In this document: piece after piece, positions 3,898 to 52,018 of the stretch | Layout of the letters: every line of letters begins with the position of its first letter | Position numbering within the stretch: position 1 is the first letter of the stretch | NCBI GenBank assembly: GCA_945787615.1 | Contig: CALZJI010000152.1 | Span: 1 to 52,018, forward strand | Direction: 5' to 3' | Source: an uncultured Chromatiaceae bacterium | Lineage (GTDB): Bacteria > Pseudomonadota > Gammaproteobacteria > JAADHS01 | Length of the DNA: 52,018 nt | Notes under the pieces: model-generated | What the model was told of the DNA's origin: nothing | Database searches by the model: none | Seen by the model: the letters and a program-made list of their open reading frames with translations, nothing else | Translations under genes and position numbers: made by a program

Positions 3898-4520
3898 GTT
3901 TCCTGAAGCAATGGTTTTAGCACCTGCGCGATCTCTCGCTGGACATCGGCTAACGATTGCGCGGCGTTGATCACACGATAGCGATCACCGTCTAGGCAAG
4001 CCATTTTCTGATAGGCGTCTCGCACGCCTTCGAAAAATGCCGCGCGTTCTTTTTCAAAACGATCCGGTTCACTACGCTTCCCGGCTCGCTCCAGCGCCAA
4101 CGGCACCGGCGCATCCAGTAAGAGTGTAACATCTGGCCGCAATTCGCCTTGCACCCATGTTTCGAGCGTGGCGACTCGGTCCCAGGGTATCCCGCGCCCT
4201 CCGCCCTGATACGCGTACGTCGCATCGGTGAAACGATCACATAACACCCATTGACCACGCGCTAGGCACGGTCGAATCACCTTGGCGATATGTTCAGCGC
4301 GCGCGGCAAACATGAGTAACAGCTCAGTGTCAGAGGCCATCCCATCGTGCTTATGATCGAGCAATAAGTGACGGATTTGCTCACCCAGAGGCGTTCCACC
4401 GGGCTCTCGTGTGACAATCACCTCCTTGCCTGCCACGTCTAGCTGTTGCCGAACAAACTCAAGATTAGAACTCTTACCAACGCCCTCAATACCTTCAATG
4501 GTAATGAAACGACCTCTCAT
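3894..4520 (-). CDS. tmk: thymidylate kinase
   Basis: 208 residues, normal for bacterial TMK. The P-loop GIEGVGKSS is at 10-18, the DRF/REPGG thymidine-site motifs are TREPGGTPLGE and LCDRFTDATYAYQGGGRG, and the lid region is rich in arginine. It phosphorylates dTMP to dTDP with ATP in the cytoplasm. It sits between mltG and holB as in E. coli. Between it and mltG (4521-4577) lies a 13-15 base remnant identical to the end of palindromic family 3. Confidence 0.96.
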   Translation of the reverse strand: MRGRFITIEGIEGVGKSSNLEFVRQQLDVAGKEVIVTREPGGTPLGEQIRHLLLDHKHDGMASDTELLLMFAARAEHIAKVIRPCLARGQWVLCDRFTDATYAYQGGGRGIPWDRVATLETWVQGELRPDVTLLLDAPVPLALERAGKRSEPDRFEKERAAFFEGVRDAYQKMACLDGDRYRVINAAQSLADVQREIAQVLKPLLQET

Positions 4521-4565
4521 ATTCTCACACCGAATAGTTGAGTAACGAGTAAATGCCGCCAGTCC

Positions 4566-4580
4566 TTAGGGCTCGCGTCA
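4566..4580. repeat. solo end of palindromic family 3
   Basis: The 15 bases TTAGGGCTCGCGTCA are identical to the well-preserved terminus of the family 3 element at 50419-50824 (its right end read on the other strand). No partner end is seen nearby. The last three bases, read on the minus strand, are the TGA stop codon of mltG, so the remnant supplies that gene's end. A 15-base identity by chance in 52 kb is unlikely. Confidence 0.6.
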
Positions 4581-5615
4581 TTGGCGCGCGGTTTTACGCT
4601 CACGTCGTGGACGCAGTATCTGGTATTCGCGGACTGCCTTGTTGTGCTCCTCAAGCGTCGCCGAAAAGTAATGGCTGCCATCGCCGCGCGCGACGAAATA
4701 AAGATAATCGCGTTCATCGGGATGCAGCGCGGCATTAATCGCCGCTTTGCTAGGCATCGCAATTGGCGTCGGCGGCAAGCCTTTTCGCGTATAGGTGTTA
4801 TAGGGCGTATCTTTCAATAAGTCTTTACGACGAATGTTCCCGTCAAAGGATTCGCCCATACCGTAAATGACCGTCGGATCCGTTTGGAGGCGCATCCCTT
4901 TTTTCAGCCTACGTATAAACACACCGGCGATCCTATCTCGTTCTTCGGCAACGGCGGTTTCTTTTTCGACAATCGAGGCCAAAATAAGCGCTTCATCAGG
5001 CGTTTTAAGCGGTAAATCCGGCGCTCGCTCGGGCCATGCTTGCTCCAAATACGTTTGCATCTCTTCGTAGGCGCGTTGCAAAAATTCCACGTCGGTCGTT
5101 CCGCTTGGAAAGTGGTAGGTCTCCGGGCTAAAGCGACCTTCCGGATGTACACCTGAAAACCCCATTTGAGCCATAATCGCCTCGCCACTTAGTTCCGTAA
5201 GCGTACGCGTTAACGCCTCATGGTCATTAACGGCTTGCATCATTTGCTTAAATGACCAGCCTTCCACCAACGTCAGTGAATGCTGAACCACTCTCCCCGA
5301 CACGAGCATCTGTAGAAACTCATCCGGCGTCATATCGGCTTGAAGCCGATACTCGCCCGCTTGTAGCTTACGAGCGCTGCCCCGCCAACGCGCTAGCCAC
5401 TCAAAAAAAATGGGCTGTTCTATCACGCCTTGCTGCGATAGATTTTGAGACAGTTGCTTTACGTTGGTTCCCGGAGGTACGATTATGTTAGTACTCGAAT
5501 CTTCGACATTCAATGGCGTTTTCACAAAATGTTGCAACTCCATCCCCAGCCAACCGCCGCCAAGACTCAGAATAATTACAACAACGCCCGTTAACTTAAA
5601 AAAAATATTCCGCAT
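4578..5615 (-). CDS. mltG: endolytic murein transglycosylase MltG
   Basis: 345 residues with one N-terminal membrane helix (about 8-25), a LysM-like region, and the YceG catalytic domain. The catalytic glutamate is in LASIVEKETAV (about residue 217), followed by RLQTDPTVIYG. It cleaves nascent glycan strands in the inner membrane and so sets chain length. Start: ATG at 5615; an in-frame GTG at 5618 directly precedes it. It begins 17 bases after pabC. The order pabC-mltG-tmk-holB is as in E. coli. Its TGA stop lies inside the family 3 end remnant at 4566-4580, so the C-terminus may have been reset by an insertion. Confidence 0.94.
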   Translation of the reverse strand: MRNIFFKLTGVVVIILSLGGGWLGMELQHFVKTPLNVEDSSTNIIVPPGTNVKQLSQNLSQQGVIEQPIFFEWLARWRGSARKLQAGEYRLQADMTPDEFLQMLVSGRVVQHSLTLVEGWSFKQMMQAVNDHEALTRTLTELSGEAIMAQMGFSGVHPEGRFSPETYHFPSGTTDVEFLQRAYEEMQTYLEQAWPERAPDLPLKTPDEALILASIVEKETAVAEERDRIAGVFIRRLKKGMRLQTDPTVIYGMGESFDGNIRRKDLLKDTPYNTYTRKGLPPTPIAMPSKAAINAALHPDERDYLYFVARGDGSHYFSATLEEHNKAVREYQILRPRRERKTARQ

Positions 5616-18629: not shown

Positions 18630-18690
18630 CTAAAGGTGATCCGCGGTCAATAGCCTGGTCACGCCATCGTGTTATTTCTCTTCCGAGTTA

Positions 18691-18852
18691 AGGGCCACGG
18701 AAATAAATAATTGTCCAAAGATTGCGCCGGATTTTGGCTCAGATTCAAGGCGCGGCAAGGGGCGCATAATCGCTTTATGTAACCCTTGTCGCAACACAGA
18801 AGCTGGGCCAAAAGACAAGCAAAATTGGATGATTATTTGTTTCCGCGGCCCT
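18691..18852. repeat. palindromic element family 1, copy B
   Basis: 162 bp from AGGGCCACGG to CCGCGGCCCT, foldable into one long hairpin: the left half TGTCCAAAG...GGCTCAG...GGCGCATAA faces TTATG...CTGGGCC...TTGGATGATT. It is nearly identical to copies C and D. It has no coding capacity. It is followed at once by a family 2 element, the two joined at CCCTAAGGG. Confidence 0.92.
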
Positions 18853-18853
18853 A

Positions 18854-19034
18854 AGGGCGGGCGAAAAAATAACTTCGTATTTTTCGCGCCCAGTTTTGGG
18901 TCATGTTTGGACAATCCGATTGAGCAAAACCGCGGGACTAGCCCGGCTAATTCGAGGTTTTTGCCATTGAGGATTATTCAAAGGTGGCGCGAATATGGGA
19001 TGCGAAAATCGTAAGTTATTTTTTCGCGAGCGCT
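18854..19034. repeat. palindromic element family 2, complete copy
   Basis: 181 bp with inverted ends: left AGGGCGGGCGAAAAAATAAC, right GTTATTTTTTCGCGAGCGCT. The arms pair almost throughout (for example TTTGGACAATCC with GGATTATTCAAA, and GCAAAACC with GGTTTTTGC), and the dyad centre is AGCCCGGCT at 18940-18948. No ORF. The same sequence follows family 1 copy D at the right edge of the window. Together with copy B it occupies most of the pycB-ridA gap. Confidence 0.9.
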
Positions 19035-35909: not shown

Positions 35910-36068
35910 TATGCCGCGGAAATACATAATTGTCCAAAGATTGCGCCGGATTTTAGCTCAGATTCAAGGCGCGGCAAGGGGCGCATAATCGCTTTATGTA
36001 ACCCTTGCAACACAGAAGCTGTGCCAAAAGACAAGCAAGATTGGATGATTATTTGTTTCCGCGGCCCT
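35910..36068. repeat. palindromic element family 1, copy C
   Basis: About 159 bp, closely matching copies B and D. The left end is eroded (GCCGCGG kept, the first bases changed); the right end CCGCGGCCCT is intact and runs straight into a family 3 element. Just before it, 35889-35902 (TTTTTCGCGAGGCC) resembles the right end of family 2 and may be a remnant. It lies 28 bases after the ptsI stop. Confidence 0.9.
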
Positions 36069-36069
36069 T

Positions 36070-36328
36070 AGGACTCGCGTCAAAATTAATTCACATTTTG
36101 GACGTCGATCCATCTCGCCTGGCTGCGTTGCCTACATGGACGTAGGTAAGGGGCGAGAGCACGCCTACAGGGACGACGCACATGGATGTGCTAGTGTCAT
36201 GAGAGGGCAGGAGCCCGAAGTGACCGTAGGTGGTAGGGCAACGCAGGACGCAGTTGCCGAGGACGCGGTAGCTTTGCCAGGCGAGCGCCTCAACGCCCAA
36301 AATGTAAATTAATTATGACGCCAGCCCT
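36070..36328. repeat. palindromic element family 3, copy 1
   Basis: 259 bp with ~50-base inverted ends: left AGGACTCGCGTCAAAATTAA, right TTAATTATGACGCCAGCCCT (the reverse complement with few changes). The interior includes GAGGGCAGGAGCCCGAAGTG and CACATGGATGTG. The second copy at 50419-50824 shares nearly all of it. Reading frames inside are not real genes. The element fills the ptsI-mgtE gap together with copy C. Confidence 0.88.
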
Positions 36329-47364: not shown

Positions 47365-48093
47365 ATGCGAAGATATTTAATATCGGTAACGGCTGTAGCG
47401 TTTGTTGCAGGTGTATTTACCACCAGTGCTATGGCATCTGCGCAGTTTCCTAAGGGAGACGGCAATGTTCAGAATGGACAAGCAATTTATGAAAACGGAA
47501 AAGGGGATGTCCCTGCGTGTAATTCGTGTCACGGTGCTGATGGTAGCGGTGACGATGCGTTGGGCACGCCGCGGTTATCGGGTCAATGGTTTACCTTTCT
47601 TTTGAAACAGCTCGAAGATTTCGCAGCAGATAAGCGCATGGATACGACGATGTTTGTGATGAACGCCAACGCGAAAGGGCTTTCTCCGCAAGATCGTCGG
47701 GATGTGGCTACATATCTTGCAGCCAAAAAAATCGAATTTAAGGGCTCTAACCTTCAGGAATTAAAAGACCAAGGTATCGAGGTTGGTGCGACGAACTTCG
47801 GTAAGTCGCTGGTAGAGTTCGGTAGTGTGCAGTTGTCTGCATGTAAGTCTTGTCACGGTTATGCGGGGCGTGGCGCGCCACCTGTTTACCCGATCATCGG
47901 GAAGCAGCGCTACACCTATCTTGTTAGCCAGTTGAAGAAGTGGCGCGACGGTAGCCGCGCAAACGACCCGATGGGTCAAATGCAGGCGATAGCGCGTAAG
48001 CTCTCCGATGAAGACATCAACAACGCGGCGGCTTATCTGACATCCGCGAATCCGTATTCTGTCGGTAACGTAGCTACGCCGTACGACCACTAA
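47365..48093 (+). CDS. diheme cytochrome c4
   Basis: 242 residues with a signal peptide (about 1-26, ending SAMASA) and two cytochrome c domains. Heme sites are CNSCH (52-56) and CKSCH (160-164); methionine ligands are likely in MDTTMFVMNANAKGLS and DPMGQMQAIARKLS. It is a periplasmic electron carrier, often feeding cbb3-type oxidases. GGAGG lies upstream of the ATG. A strong terminator follows, so it is a separate transcript from the next genes. Confidence 0.93.
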   Translation: MRRYLISVTAVAFVAGVFTTSAMASAQFPKGDGNVQNGQAIYENGKGDVPACNSCHGADGSGDDALGTPRLSGQWFTFLLKQLEDFAADKRMDTTMFVMNANAKGLSPQDRRDVATYLAAKKIEFKGSNLQELKDQGIEVGATNFGKSLVEFGSVQLSACKSCHGYAGRGAPPVYPIIGKQRYTYLVSQLKKWRDGSRANDPMGQMQAIARKLSDEDINNAAAYLTSANPYSVGNVATPYDH

Positions 48094-48134: not shown

Positions 48135-48166
48135 AAAAAAAGCGGGCCTCACAGCCCGCTTTTTTT
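48135..48166. terminator. intrinsic terminator after cytochrome c4
   Basis: AGCGGGC and GCCCGCT pair around CTCACA, flanked by a run of seven A on the left and seven T on the right. It can work on both strands; on the plus strand it ends the cytochrome c4 transcript 42 bases after its stop. Confidence 0.93.
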
Positions 48167-48270
48167 CTACACAGCTATTACAACAATAATTACACCTATA
48201 GTCTTCGGAAACTTTCCGCCGCTTGCCCGGTCTCTCTGAATATATTATTAAAACAGAGTGCAGAATAGTT

Positions 48271-48867
48271 ATGAAACAAAAACAGCCGTTAAAATCTGGA
48301 GAAAAAATCCTTCTATCCGTATTCGGGGTTTTTTTTGTCTTGGCGTGTATTGGGTACGTTATTCTCGAGTCGGTGAGGCTGACGTCCGATAAGCCGATGT
48401 TTCAACAAACAACCTTTTTTGATTTCTCGCCGGAAGGAAAAATGGGCGCTGGTATCTACCAGGCCTCTAACTGTAACGCTTGTCATCGTTCCATGCGCAG
48501 CGGAACCAGTATGGGTTTGTCGCTAGACGGTATCGGATCTAAGCGCTCTGTAGAATGGCTCGAAGCTTTTCTTGGAGACCCTGAAAACGTATACGGGGCG
48601 CCGACGATAGATCATGGTATGCGCCCCAAAGAGGCTGCGTTCATATCGGATATGTCGGCGGAAGATCGGCGTCTCTTAGCGGTTTACTTATCTGAGCTAC
48701 GCGCGGTTCCTGGATCGTCTGTCGCCAAAGTGCCGCCACCGGAGCACTCTGAATTCATTGACACCATGGTAAAGGCGTGGGCGCCGGCTGACTGGCAGCA
48801 CAAATACGAAGACATAAGAGTTCGAATAAAGCGGGAGCAGGCGGAAGAGAGTGAAATCAATGAATGA
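48271..48867 (+). CDS. membrane-anchored monoheme cytochrome c
   Basis: 198 residues from ATG 48271 (a longer frame opening with TTG at 48223 is less likely). One N-terminal membrane helix (about 12-34) anchors a periplasmic domain with a single heme site CNACH (68-72); a methionine ligand is likely in HGMRPKE or ISDMSAED. It resembles the heme subunit of NO reductase or the CcoO class only in layout. It begins a four-gene set and overlaps the next gene by 8 bases. Confidence 0.8.
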   Translation: MKQKQPLKSGEKILLSVFGVFFVLACIGYVILESVRLTSDKPMFQQTTFFDFSPEGKMGAGIYQASNCNACHRSMRSGTSMGLSLDGIGSKRSVEWLEAFLGDPENVYGAPTIDHGMRPKEAAFISDMSAEDRRLLAVYLSELRAVPGSSVAKVPPPEHSEFIDTMVKAWAPADWQHKYEDIRVRIKREQAEESEINE

Positions 48868-49384
48868 GTCGTGGTTACATCCACAAGAAGTCGTCTATCG
48901 CCGCTACACGCTATGGTTCGTTTATGCATGTGTAATCTACAGTATTATCGGGTTTTCCTGGGGAGCAATTATGGGCGGCATGGCGGATTTTCGCCATTTC
49001 GTTGATCACCGATTGCATGGCAATCTTATCGTTCGGGCCCACACCCATATCAACCTCCTAGGCTGGGTCGAAATGGCAATTTTCGCCGGCGTATACTACA
49101 TCATCCCGCGGCTAGCGAAGCGCCCGATCTTTAGTTTGAGTTTAGTGAAAGCTCATTTTTGGATTCATAACCTGGGGCTAATCGGCATGGTCGTTTTTTT
49201 TACCGTGGCCGGAGCGCTGGGTGGCATGGCAAGCGTGGAGGCAACGCCTGCCGAGGTGGAGAGTATCGTTGCTCCCCTTTTGGCGACAATGGGTATATTC
49301 GGTACGCTCGTGTTGCTCGCAAACTGTATATGGGCTTTTAATATCTTTCGGACGTGTGCTGGGTGGGAAAAAGCGTATGAGTAG
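48860..49384 (+). CDS. half-length heme-copper-oxidase subunit I-like protein
   Basis: 174 residues with four membrane helices (about 15-38, 54-77, 95-118 and 134-160). Helix 2 holds RAHTHINLLGWVEMAIFAG, like the first heme-ligand helix of cbb3 and NO reductase subunit I; helix 3 begins HFWIHNLGLIGMV. The rest of subunit I, including the copper-site histidines, is absent, so it cannot be a complete oxidase. It may bind a single b heme. An in-frame GTG at 48851 is an alternative start. It overlaps both neighbours, so it works with them. Confidence 0.7.
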   Translation: MNESWLHPQEVVYRRYTLWFVYACVIYSIIGFSWGAIMGGMADFRHFVDHRLHGNLIVRAHTHINLLGWVEMAIFAGVYYIIPRLAKRPIFSLSLVKAHFWIHNLGLIGMVVFFTVAGALGGMASVEATPAEVESIVAPLLATMGIFGTLVLLANCIWAFNIFRTCAGWEKAYE

Positions 49385-49889
49385 TAAATGGCGTAAAGGT
49401 TTTGGTTCTGGTCTAATCGTGCTTACAGTCGCTATTGCGACGGCTTGTTACGCTCCGGAGGGGGTCTTACAGGTGGGGGCTGAAGCGCCAAGCCTTAGAA
49501 CCAAAACGTTGCAGGACGTTGGCGGCGATTTCAGCAGGATTACCAGCTATCGCTATCCCGATGAGCGCATGTACCAGTACTCTCTCGACAAGGCCATTGA
49601 GCAAGGGAAACCTATTGTGCTCGAATTTGCCACGCCGGGACATTGTACCGTCTGCGATAAGCAACTCCAGATGCTAAAAGCGCTGCTTAAAAAGTACGAG
49701 AAGGACGTTATCTTTCTCCACATGGATCAGTATCAGAATCCAGAAGCGTTCATTGCGTTTAAGGTTCGCGGAGACCCATGGACGTTTGTGATTGACCAAG
49801 ACCAGAAGGTTCGCTTTCGTAGGGCTGGGCGTATGCTGTTCGGAGAGCTCGATGGTGTAATTAATGACGTTCTACAAGGTAAAGGTTAA
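49377..49889 (+). CDS. thioredoxin-fold lipoprotein
   Basis: 170 residues from ATG 49377, within an 8-base overlap with the gene before; upstream codons in this frame belong to that gene's shadow. A lipoprotein signal is likely, with C24 in AIATAC. The thioredoxin-like domain has ATPGHCTVCDKQ (C90, C93) and GDPWTFVID around the cis-proline. It should act outside the inner membrane, perhaps reducing the apocytochrome heme cysteines or a metal site in its partners. Confidence 0.78.
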   Translation: MSSKWRKGFGSGLIVLTVAIATACYAPEGVLQVGAEAPSLRTKTLQDVGGDFSRITSYRYPDERMYQYSLDKAIEQGKPIVLEFATPGHCTVCDKQLQMLKALLKKYEKDVIFLHMDQYQNPEAFIAFKVRGDPWTFVIDQDQKVRFRRAGRMLFGELDGVINDVLQGKG

Positions 49890-49912
49890 GTTACTAATCG
49901 TAGGTAAATTGG

Positions 49913-50371
49913 ATGGCTAAGAAGGAGAAACGCTGTACGTTAATACAAGATATAAAGGGCATGTGGTGGGACTTGGCGTTGTACGTGCCTACCGTAGTGT
50001 TTTTGTTATCGATTGGGTTTAAGCTCTGGTATACGGCGGACAAAAACTGGACCTATCTCCTCGTATTCCTCGCAACTTTTTTCTTTCTCGCTGGTACCAA
50101 TAGAATTTTAAAAACGCGGATGATGTTGTTGCCGTCTTCGCCCATAGGGATAGATGCCAATAAGCAACGCGTGTTGCTACAGTTGCGGAGCGGACAGCAG
50201 GTGGAGTTAGTGAAAGCGCTTCGTTATTATCCTGATTTTGTCGGTAAGAGCTTTGCCTTGTCGGGTCTAGACTTGTCGGGTGCTAAGCGACAGCATGTTT
50301 TTCACCGAGGCCAGTTTGCGAACGACAAGGAATACCAAGAGATGCGCGATTTCTTGCGCGTGTTTGCATAA
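49913..50371 (+). CDS. two-helix membrane protein of unknown function
   Basis: 152 residues. Two membrane helices (about 20-39 and 46-64) precede a soluble C-terminal part (about 75-152), likely cytoplasmic, with DLSGAKRQHVFHRGQF. I do not recognise the family. It follows the thioredoxin gene by 23 bases and is the last gene of this run, so a part in assembly or regulation of the same redox unit is inferred from position only. Confidence 0.65.
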   Translation: MAKKEKRCTLIQDIKGMWWDLALYVPTVVFLLSIGFKLWYTADKNWTYLLVFLATFFFLAGTNRILKTRMMLLPSSPIGIDANKQRVLLQLRSGQQVELVKALRYYPDFVGKSFALSGLDLSGAKRQHVFHRGQFANDKEYQEMRDFLRVFA

Positions 50372-50418: not shown

Positions 50419-50824
50419 AGGGCTCGCTTCAAAATTACTTCGTATTTTTGGGTATTGAGGCGCTCGCCTGGCAACGCTTCCGCGTCCTCGATTGCCGTTC
50501 CCGACGCAATTCTACCACCTACGGTCACTTCGGGCTCCTGCCCTCTCGTGACACTAGCGCATCCATGTGCGTCGTCCGTGCAGTCGTGCTCACGCCCCTT
50601 GCCTACGTCCCTGTAGGCAAAGCTTCCGCGTCCTCGGCAACTGCGTCCTGCGTTGCCCTACCACCTACGGTCACTTCGGGCTCCTGCCCTCTCATGACAC
50701 TAGCGCATCCATGTGCGTCGTCCCTGTAGGCGTGCTCTCGCCCCTTACCTACGTCCCTGTAGGCAACGCAGCCGGGCGAGAGGGATCGACGTCCAAAAAG
50801 TGAATTAATTTTGACGCGAGCCCT
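50419..50824. repeat. palindromic element family 3, copy 2 with internal duplication
   Basis: 406 bp from AGGGCTCGCTTCAAAATTAC to TTTTGACGCGAGCCCT, in opposite orientation to the copy at 36070. Its core is duplicated with a period of about 146 bases (for example CTTCCGCGTCCTCG at 50477 and 50623), which explains the length. Reading frames inside are not real genes. It separates the redox genes from the coiled-coil protein gene. Confidence 0.88.
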
Positions 50825-50969
50825 AAGTGCGGCGGCGAGAGTTAGAACGTAAGGTAGCAGAGACATCGCTCACGAACGCGATGAACCTCGTGGTACGCGT
50901 GCGGTCGAAGATTAGAAAGGTCTCCACGAATATTGAAAAACGCTAATGTAAGCATAGCCGAGCGATTCT

Positions 50970-51407
50970 ATGGCGAAAACACAGCTTCTCGCGGTTGCAC
51001 TTTTTACACTATGCATAACGTCGTCCCTAGCAGATGTCGCGAGAGACAATTTAAAGTTAGAACTCAAGCAGAAAGAGGCGAGTATTGAACAGAAAAATCA
51101 ACAGCAAATAGAGAAAATACGAACCGATCCGGCTACGCTCCCTGATAAGCAGCAACTCGATAATGAGCAGCAGCGAGAGCGCTTAGAACAACAAAGACTC
51201 GAGGAAAGCCAACTCAAGGAACGCACCGGGTTACGATTAAGGTTGAAAAGTGATCGTGACATCGACGCAGCCTCGAAACTCAATCAACAACAACTCAAAT
51301 TCGAAACGCAGCAACAACGACAACTATTAGAGTTTCGCATGAATCAACAGATTCGATCGACGCAGCCAACAACAGGAATTCCGAGCGTATCAGAAAGTTT
51401 AGACTGA
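50970..51407 (+). CDS. secreted Gln-rich coiled-coil protein
   Basis: 145 residues. A signal peptide (about 1-21, SSLADVA region) is followed by a long charged, Gln-rich helix (about 25-130) with many LEQQ, QQQ and KLNQQQ stretches and no cysteine in the mature part. It is predicted periplasmic. I do not recognise the family. It stands alone between repeats, with GAGCGA as a weak ribosome-binding site before ATG 50970. Confidence 0.65.
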   Translation: MAKTQLLAVALFTLCITSSLADVARDNLKLELKQKEASIEQKNQQQIEKIRTDPATLPDKQQLDNEQQRERLEQQRLEESQLKERTGLRLRLKSDRDIDAASKLNQQQLKFETQQQRQLLEFRMNQQIRSTQPTTGIPSVSESLD

Positions 51408-51759
51408 CCTTGGTAGCAAGCCGAAACTTTAGTGTAAGGAATCCAGGATCCTTAAGACGCTTCTTTCTAGGTGAAAACGATTAGAAACTCTACTTTTTTC
51501 AATATGATACGCCCGTAGATAACGGAGTATCTATCGGAACTAGCGCTACGCCGTAAGGACCGTGGTGCAGCCGTAGGGCGTGGTAATGGGTCTCTGTAGT
51601 CGGATACTGGTCCGCATGACTCACCAATGTTCCCAGCAATTTCTACGCGATCGCTCCTGCTTTAGCCAATCGCCCACATCCACGTAGGCCCGCATTGCTC
51701 TACCGGCAGTCACTTTGGGCTTCATCCCGCTCACCCACCCCTCTGTGCTCCGTGGCTTA
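51408..51759. other. right-edge spacer with decayed family 3 sequence
   Basis: About 350 bases without a supportable gene. The part 51670-51740 (CGTAGGCCCGCATTGCTC, then CAGTCACTTTGGGCTTCATC) resembles the interior of family 3 (GTCACTTCGGGCTCCTG) and looks like a decayed copy. The rest shows no feature I can name. Confidence 0.45.
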
Positions 51760-51921
51760 AGGGCCGCGGAAATAAATAATTGTCCAAATATTGCGCCGGA
51801 TTTTGGCTCAGATTCAAGGCGCGGCAAGGGGCGCATAATCGCTTTATGTAACCCTTGCCGCAACACAGAAGCTGGGCCAAAAGACACGCAAGATTGTATG
51901 ATTATTTGTTTCCGCGGCCCT
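51760..51921. repeat. palindromic element family 1, copy D
   Basis: 162 bp, AGGGCCGCGG to CCGCGGCCCT, nearly identical to copy B. As in copy B it is joined directly at CCCTAAGGG to a family 2 element. Confidence 0.92.
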
Positions 51922-51922
51922 A

Positions 51923-52018
51923 AGGGCTCGCGAAAAAATAACTTCGTATTTTTCGCGCCCAGATTTGGGTCAGATTTGGACAATCCGATTGAGCAAAACC
52001 GCAGGACTAGCCCGGCTA
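51923..52018. repeat. palindromic element family 2, cut by window end
   Basis: 96 bases matching the left half of the complete copy at 18854-19034, from AGGGCTCGCGAAAAAATAAC to CCCGGCTA. The window stops about 5 bases past the dyad centre, so the right arm is not seen. Confidence 0.88.

Follow-up and report, generated by a model that had tools for sequence, protein, structure and literature searches.

A four-gene unit with a predicted single-repeat relative of oxidase subunit I accompanies a putative divergent cbb3-family oxidase

What purpose could be served by a short protein that resembles part of subunit I of a haem-copper oxidase and is encoded amid a cytochrome c, a lipoprotein and a small membrane protein? 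The question is raised by contig CALZJI010000152.1 of an uncultured Chromatiaceae bacterium (assembly GCA_945787615.1), whose 52,018 nucleotides, read on the forward strand, are here called the window. We confirmed four open reading frames (ORFs) as real, P1 (48271..48867), P2 (48860..49384), P3 (49377..49889) and P4 (49913..50371), all on the plus strand; P1/P2 and P2/P3 each overlap by 8 bases, and 23 bases separate P3 from P4. A first-pass annotation, made from the letters of the window, had described an anchored monohaem cytochrome c, a four-helix protein with the haem-ligand helix of subunit I and no copper site, a CxxC lipoprotein and a two-helix protein, and had proposed a quinol or c-type electron shuttle, a haem-based gas sensor or an assembly unit for another oxidase. 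The larger gene island that holds the unit lay beyond its view. Our computations show that the unit co-occurs with full ccoN and ccoO genes, usually just upstream of them, and we consider it very probable that it serves this oxidase in one way or another.

We scanned one genome per species, 84,980 species in all, with a P2 pattern, obtained 217 relatives and kept the best 80 loci; by their titles, these come from Gamma- and Zetaproteobacteria, Ca. Tenderia and Mariprofundus among them. All four genes were present in 79 of the 80 loci, so that the grouping of four overlapping or close genes described at first stands; in the exception, L033, P4 was missing and the sequence ended 586 bases after P2. 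Sequence extending 3.5 kb or more beyond P2 made 59 loci testable for ccoN, which was found in 55 of them, full-length in 50 and partial in 5. Four of the partial copies lay at the end of the available sequence, and the fifth, in L025, stopped matching earlier. ccoN was located 787 to 4556 bp downstream of P4 in 54 loci and upstream of the unit in L002.

The same association was seen when whole genomes were counted. In a class sample of 369 genomes, with P2 taken at E <= 1e-20 and matching CcoO at E <= 1e-40, P2 was present in 34 and CcoO in 33: 32 genomes had both, two had P2 alone (G035 and G077), one had CcoO alone (G037, a partial match) and 334 had neither. In G035, ccoN follows the unit, split into two ORFs at the contig end, and the G077 contig comprises just 3645 bases. 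In 26 of the 32 genomes with both, a single contig carried P2 and CcoO on the same strand and no more than 5 kb apart. Four genomes of family f22 kept both and carried the unit away from ccoO, by 332 kb in G277 and about 189 kb in G368, and on other contigs in G023 and G170; the stretches of G277, G023 and G368 (loci L095, L100 and L101) contain c4, a dihaem cytochrome c gene, and P1 to P4, and no ccoN. P2 and CcoO were also on different contigs in G000 and G191. In a phylum sample of 398 genomes, where true P2 was taken as E < 1e-80, P2 was present in 45 and CcoO in 42 (both, 39; P2 alone, 6; CcoO alone, 3; neither, 350); the weaker P2 matches in that list were mostly long open frames of about 470 to 580 amino acids, the size of full-length subunit I. 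The first-pass annotation had set homologues that always sit beside a complete subunit I as grounds for abandoning its view, and the loci and the class genomes come very near to that arrangement.

The order of the island was read in G242 (L113), where c4, P1, P2, P3, P4, ccoN, ccoO and a gene in the place of ccoP are followed by small genes, a gene for a second monohaem cytochrome c, several others, a gene for a CcoG-type polyferredoxin and one for a small c-type cytochrome; the gene P2b and a partner face them. The P3 of G242 was detected by tblastn, the ORF list having an antisense ORF there. Like the cbb3 oxidases (CcoNOP), the island has a full-length CcoN, a monohaem CcoO of the FixO family (one CxxCH in 47 of 50 sequences) and a CcoG-type polyferredoxin. 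Histidines H65, H206, H256, H257, H344 and H346 of CcoN, the six expected from the cbb3 structure as ligands of two haems and copper, were kept in 47 of 47 sequences. Unlike in those oxidases, CcoN, CcoO and CcoG score below the NCBIfam cut-offs, the protein in the place of CcoP is haem-less, with no CxxCH in 40 of 40 sequences, and P1, P3, P4 and two single-repeat subunit-I proteins, P2 and P2b, are added. Judged by its sequences, the enzyme is a divergent cbb3-family cytochrome c oxidase that falls outside canonical cbb3 as delimited by the NCBIfam ccoN and ccoO equivalogs. The labels "CcoP-like", "CcoS-like" and "FixH-like" found no Pfam or NCBIfam support and are kept only as labels of position or of inspection by eye.

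P2b is a second single-repeat, subunit-I-like protein, encoded in the Chromatiaceae host on contig C178 (L084:605-1126) and scoring 50.1 bits against COX1 for a cut-off of 34.8. It was found in 36 of the 369 class genomes, namely all 34 with P2 plus G037 and G305, and its HxH motif was invariant in 11 aligned sequences. The second monohaem cytochrome c of the host matches Pfam Cytochrom_C, and the host oxidase gene run continues into genes for a long Spermine_synth-domain protein and an FGE-sulfatase protein (L085:570-3254 and 4018-5085); relatives carry, in the corresponding position, ORFs comparable in size and start.

In the host itself, the unit and the oxidase are on separate contigs. The window (contig C152) stops in a dispersed repeat (51757..52018): its last ~260 bases have 86 matches in the genome, both strands counted, with up to 98% identity, and several contigs of the genome start in the same repeat. 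Neither ccoN nor the small linker genes tested were found in the last 1647 bases of the window (best E, 0.19). Contig C564 (minus strand) begins inside ccoN, at residue 393 of the 475 of a relative, and continues with ccoO and the following genes; a search of the assembly at E 1e-5 returned no fragment of ccoN other than this part matching residues 393-475. In the two nearest relatives of the same family, P2 and CcoO lie on one contig, 3.5-3.9 kb apart and in the linked order, and because these relatives keep that order we infer that C152 and C564 are neighbors across an assembly gap. A true orphan unit in the host genome is not supported, given that the contig stops in a dispersed repeat and that the oxidase is on C564.

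We then considered what P2 is. The protein, 174 amino acids long, scored 60.5 bits against Pfam COX1 (PF00115; cut-off, 34.8) with only profile positions 310-433 of 436 covered, and its best NCBIfam match was the cbb3 CcoN model TIGR00780, at positions 342-462 of 474 and below the model cut-off. Solved cbb3 structures ranked first in a sequence search. The AlphaFold2 model (predicted local distance difference test [pLDDT], 80.2) consists of four long helices, and Foldseek searches with it placed cbb3 and NOR chains first (probability, 1.00), with a best E of 6.3e-3 and none below 0.001. VIA-align gave a Z of 11.3 for P2 against the R. capsulatus cbb3, which says little because unrelated helical bundles reach comparable values (Z, 10-11). 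A closer match to some non-haem family, which would have told against the initial description, was not seen, as family, sequence and Foldseek searches all put haem-copper oxidases first.

P2 lacks the twelve-helix core of COX1/CcoN. Its HxH (H61 and H63; 49040..49048, plus strand), equivalent by alignment to the helix-X haem ligands H344/H346 of CcoN, was present without exception in 70 sequences. Only histidines 61, 63, 99 and 103 were conserved in all 70, and H99 aligned to CcoN H382, which, read off the alignment, is no CuB ligand; the three CuB histidines, or any equivalent of the copper site, and a second low-spin haem ligand were not found in the P2 chain in this alignment. The early description of a four-helix protein with the haem-ligand helix of subunit I and no copper site thus holds, as does the statement that P2 cannot be an oxidase by itself.

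Subunit I has an internal threefold repeat, and P2 matched all three parts. A profile of the 70 P2 sequences hit the CcoN profile at residues 325-454 (E, 1.6e-13), 12-114 (4e-6) and 168-297 (1.9e-5), which are separate and consecutive. With excised CcoN repeats, P2 gave E values of 2.2e-15 for repeat 3, 1.5e-7 for repeat 1 and 2.9e-6 for repeat 2, and the repeats compared with one another gave 0.042, 0.12 and 1.5e-4, the value for repeat 3 versus repeat 1 being 0.12. Control profiles (two unrelated families, a reversed CcoN and five window-shuffled CcoN) reached best E values of 0.026-0.22 with P2. As an independent set, we used subunit I proteins with a cbb3-type annotation from four organisms: one member of the Bacteroidota, one alphaproteobacterium, one betaproteobacterium and one archaeon. 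In a joint alignment, they matched P2 with all three repeats, at 4.4e-17, 1.3e-7 (over only 28 columns) and 9.3e-7; taken singly, repeat 1 was clear in Bernardetia (1.7e-5), weak in Azoarcus (0.0011) and not found in the remaining two sequences, the archaeal one showing repeat 3 only. From these comparisons we conclude that P2 is equal to one of the three four-helix repeats of CcoN, with H61/H63 corresponding to the ligand-bearing helices. The repeat-1 match of P2b (0.004) is not claimed, as P2b reached 0.0015 over 12 columns with the reversed CcoN profile.

In a tree of repeats, selected by motif search (which supplied only R3 for Bernardetia and Salinigranum and no R1 for Azoarcus), all single-repeat proteins fell on the repeat-3 side (96/84), on long branches flagged by the program. 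P2 was placed outside a clade of eight bacterial CcoN repeat-3 rows (95/91), and the archaeal repeat 3 was likewise outside the clade of the other eight. The tree does not establish an origin of P2 before the triplication; an ancient fragment of repeat 3 would fit as well.

The companions of P2 are conserved too, with a mean column identity of 57-58% for P1, P3 and P4, compared to 76% for P2 and 74% for CcoO. P1 matches Cytochrom_C (27.4 bits; cut-off, 21.3) and carries a single CxxCH (residues 68-72; 48472..48486, plus strand) behind a hydrophobic N-terminal stretch, the anchor being assigned by eye. Exactly one CxxCH was present in 68 of 68 cluster members, with C68, C71 and H72 invariant in a 29-row alignment, in agreement with the anchored monohaem cytochrome c first described. 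P3 passes the cut-off for a thioredoxin-like fold (AhpC-TSA, 30.7 bits versus 26; Thioredoxin, 27.4 versus 23.5), and its lipobox cysteine C24 (49446..49448, lipobox by eye) and its CxxC (C90 and C93; 49644..49655), both on the plus strand, were invariant in 28 of 28 rows, which substantiates the CxxC lipoprotein. H89, directly before the CxxC, and H115 were invariant likewise. SCO copper chaperones carry CxxxC, and P3 is set apart from them by its CxxC in all 28 rows. P4 had no match at E 1 in Pfam or NCBIfam. P4 was aligned in 29 rows. The two helices announced for it are there in the AlphaFold2 model (mean pLDDT, 89.8), together with a beta domain of six strands and a further helix at the C terminus. 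Foldseek returned no convincing fold relative of P4, the best match being a weak one to a double PH domain (E, 0.03; TMq, 0.26).

How would such a unit serve the oxidase? Our preferred reading, to which we give about even odds, is that P1 to P4 form an accessory module of the divergent cbb3-family oxidase, P1 and P2 being subunits and P3 and P4 assembly factors. Electrons would pass from the dihaem c4 to P1 and on to CcoO. Because a haem motif is lacking from the protein in the place of CcoP, the missing haem may come from P1, so that P1 and CcoO would together provide the c haems normally carried by CcoP. P2 would anchor P1 in or beside the oxidase, and its HxH, at the periplasmic end of the second helix in a topology drawn by eye, would hold a haem b or guide haem. 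P3 could act as a periplasmic thiol or copper maturation factor and P4 as a membrane scaffold.

Several observations weigh against this reading. Helix 1 of P2 offers no second haem ligand, and a haem b on P2 would therefore need a partner chain; that P2 binds haem, what precisely it does and that P1 or P2 attaches to the oxidase are what we infer. The protein in the place of CcoP matches no Pfam or NCBIfam family, so its kinship with CcoP is our reading and the "missing CcoP haems" rest on position. The oxidase assignments are themselves distant: the best NCBIfam matches of CcoN from relatives (L094) were ccoN-type models at 222.3 of the required 583.15 bits, the host CcoO exceeded the cut-off of the Pfam FixO family (58.4 versus 29.6 bits) and remained below that of NCBIfam (59.3 versus 200.65), and CcoG was the best NCBIfam match of the polyferredoxin at 135 versus 317 bits. 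Most of ccoN is missing from the host assembly, and the link between unit and oxidase in the host is for this reason drawn from relatives. P2 occurred without detected CcoO in 2 of the 369 class and 6 of the 398 phylum genomes, and ccoN was not found in L037, L052, L062 and L067 within the 5.5-6 kb available downstream. The genomes are related and were counted as independent, and we attach no probability to the co-occurrence; the 80 loci and the genome sample also overlap, the five contig pairs checked all being identical DNA. Finally, P2b shares a stretch with the ccoG-type polyferredoxin gene, which favors an assembly role for the single-repeat proteins.

That role, extended to the whole unit, is the most serious competitor. 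All four proteins, P2 included, would form an assembly module of which none stays in the finished enzyme, with P2 as a decoy or chaperone repeat holding haem or nascent CcoN and with P1 and P3 maintaining the proper redox state of thiols or copper. The invariant HCxxC of the thioredoxin-fold lipoprotein P3 fits this explanation, as do the presence of P2b in every class genome with P2, its neighborhood to the polyferredoxin gene and, in L113, to the small c-type cytochrome, and the ability of the unit to sit far from the structural genes. However, the haem c motif in every P1 and in none of the proteins in the place of CcoP is what an electron carrier would show, and P2 equals CcoO, a structural subunit, in conservation. 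We regard assembly by all four as possible though less probable than the mixed reading of subunits and assembly factors. The loss of family support for the "CcoP-like" label has narrowed the distance, since we had earlier rated the mixed reading a little better than even and the assembly explanation a little lower than now. The suggestion of an "assembly unit for another oxidase" made at first is thus upheld in its tie to an oxidase, and an assembly role for all four proteins stands as its tentative part.

The other explanations fare worse. A redox shuttle or haem-based gas sensor that stands by itself, tied to no particular oxidase, would suit a compact transcript, probably the unit's own, behind a strong hairpin, and ccoN was out of reach in 4 of the 59 testable loci; but it is strongly disfavored by the almost perfect co-occurrence with one oxidase, to which the unit is usually adjacent, and the Pfam and NCBIfam searches with the four proteins returned no known sensor output domain. 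We therefore reject a stand-alone redox unit on synteny and co-occurrence, consider it very improbable, and find the shuttle and sensor proposals of the first-pass annotation unsupported. P2 might also be a decayed or truncated copy of the neighboring ccoN, whose C-terminal third it matches best. Yet P2 shares 69-79% identity with the 29 relatives aligned to it, which come from Gamma- and Zetaproteobacteria, the tree sets it outside the bacterial CcoN repeat-3 clade, and it matches repeat 1 far better than repeat 3 does (1.5e-7 versus 0.12); on conservation and tree, we reject this origin and give it almost no weight. A bolder idea, which we think unlikely, sees in P2 and P2b extant single-repeat relatives of the unit tripled in the oxidase core. 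As homo- or hetero-oligomers, at the limit a three-subunit ring like subunit I, they would bind haem b through HxH and add a haem-b electron path. If it were true, the triplication origin of subunit I would become testable with a single repeat.

Among known systems, cytochrome c-dependent nitric oxide reductase (cNOR) pairs an anchored monohaem cytochrome c, NorC, with a subunit-I-type membrane protein, NorB. The P1-P2 pairing resembles NorC/NorB by analogy, and a Roseobacter NorB was the best non-cbb3 fold match of P2. In contrast to NorB, P2 has well under half the length and no catalytic metal site, and the linked full subunit I has ccoN as its best match among NCBIfam equivalogs and keeps the cbb3-type histidines; the unit is not a cNOR, and the exclusion of a normal NO reductase in the initial description is confirmed. 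Stand-alone single-repeat proteins of alphaproteobacteria (such as that of Ciceribacter, 150 amino acids, L145:2965-3417) are similar to P2 in size and in the AHAHLNLVGW motif, and DUF2871 (PF11070) reaches P2 at 19.4 bits, under the gathering cut-off of 27.4. A P1/P3/P4 context was not seen for these alphaproteobacterial proteins, no search for it having been made. By tblastn, the Ciceribacter protein matched Rhizobium plasmid features called "hypothetical protein", often with a cupin-domain protein, and once among the 25 plasmid matches listed a feature named "cbb3-type cytochrome c oxidase subunit I".

Part of this region is already in print. In the accessible part of one report, synteny around cyc1 (c4) between Ca. 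Tenderia electrophaga and Mariprofundus includes a polyferredoxin and three hypothetical genes, and a second complex IV of Ca. Tenderia is among the most highly expressed genes, beside a weakly expressed canonical cbb3 (PMC5371394). Our locus L014 is from a Ca. Tenderia and has P1 to P4; the two regions would be the same. A half-length CcoN or a role for the small genes goes unmentioned in that part of the text. Zetaproteobacteria are reported to have proximal and distal cbb3 forms (PMC7029218) that differ in subunit composition (PMC8788666), and cyc1 is noted to be absent, together with cbb3, from two Zetaproteobacteria strains (PMC5513912). The linked oxidase is perhaps the "distal" form, a label taken from these papers. 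The split cbb3 subunit I reported in Midichloria is a different case (PMC4013037). A description of a half-length CcoN in this cluster, or of P2 or P2b, was not found in the partial texts covered by our literature search, supplements being outside it.

The bacteria that host the oxidase cluster are autotrophs, some of them iron oxidizers, and the Chromatiaceae genome is in line with this in having RuBisCO. The lineages include Mariprofundus and Ca. Tenderia, in which electron entry from iron or a cathode into a terminal oxidase is at issue, and an island that has P1 and P2 and lacks a recognizable haem-bearing CcoP points to a different, testable entry. One-repeat proteins also make the threefold symmetry within subunit I visible in sequence and open to study as an isolated unit.

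Upstream of the unit, the window encodes the dihaem cytochrome c (47365..48093, plus strand), c4/Cyc1-like by our reading, with two Cytochrom_C stretches. Two CxxCH were present in 51 of 53 cluster members, and tblastn found relatives in 56 of the 80 loci. A hairpin whose 3' arm is T-rich (about 48140..48167, plus strand), noticed by eye and by RNA fold, lies between c4 and P1 and folds at -25.6 kcal/mol (z, -6.5). It is absent from the listing of a consensus terminator scan, and its stem takes up the T run. The hairpin is probably a terminator, and on this account P1 to P4 probably, not surely, have their own transcript.

The repeat at the contig end has further copies in the window at 18688-18949 and 35913-36099 and measures about 165-260 bases; its two strands match each other at about 70-73%, which makes it an imperfect palindrome resembling a miniature inverted-repeat transposable element. 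After P4, a second repeat (50419-50836) consists of two tandem copies, 86% identical, with copies at 36059-36328 up to 96% identical. The stretch 50970-51407 holds a 145-amino-acid ORF with a signal-like N terminus and a Gln/Glu-rich body, where relatives have small linker genes. In five Mariprofundus-type loci (L059, L060, L064, L070 and L072), a multicopper oxidase-family gene follows the unit, lying between P4 and ccoN where both are present; the L070 copy matches Pfam Cu-oxidase_3.

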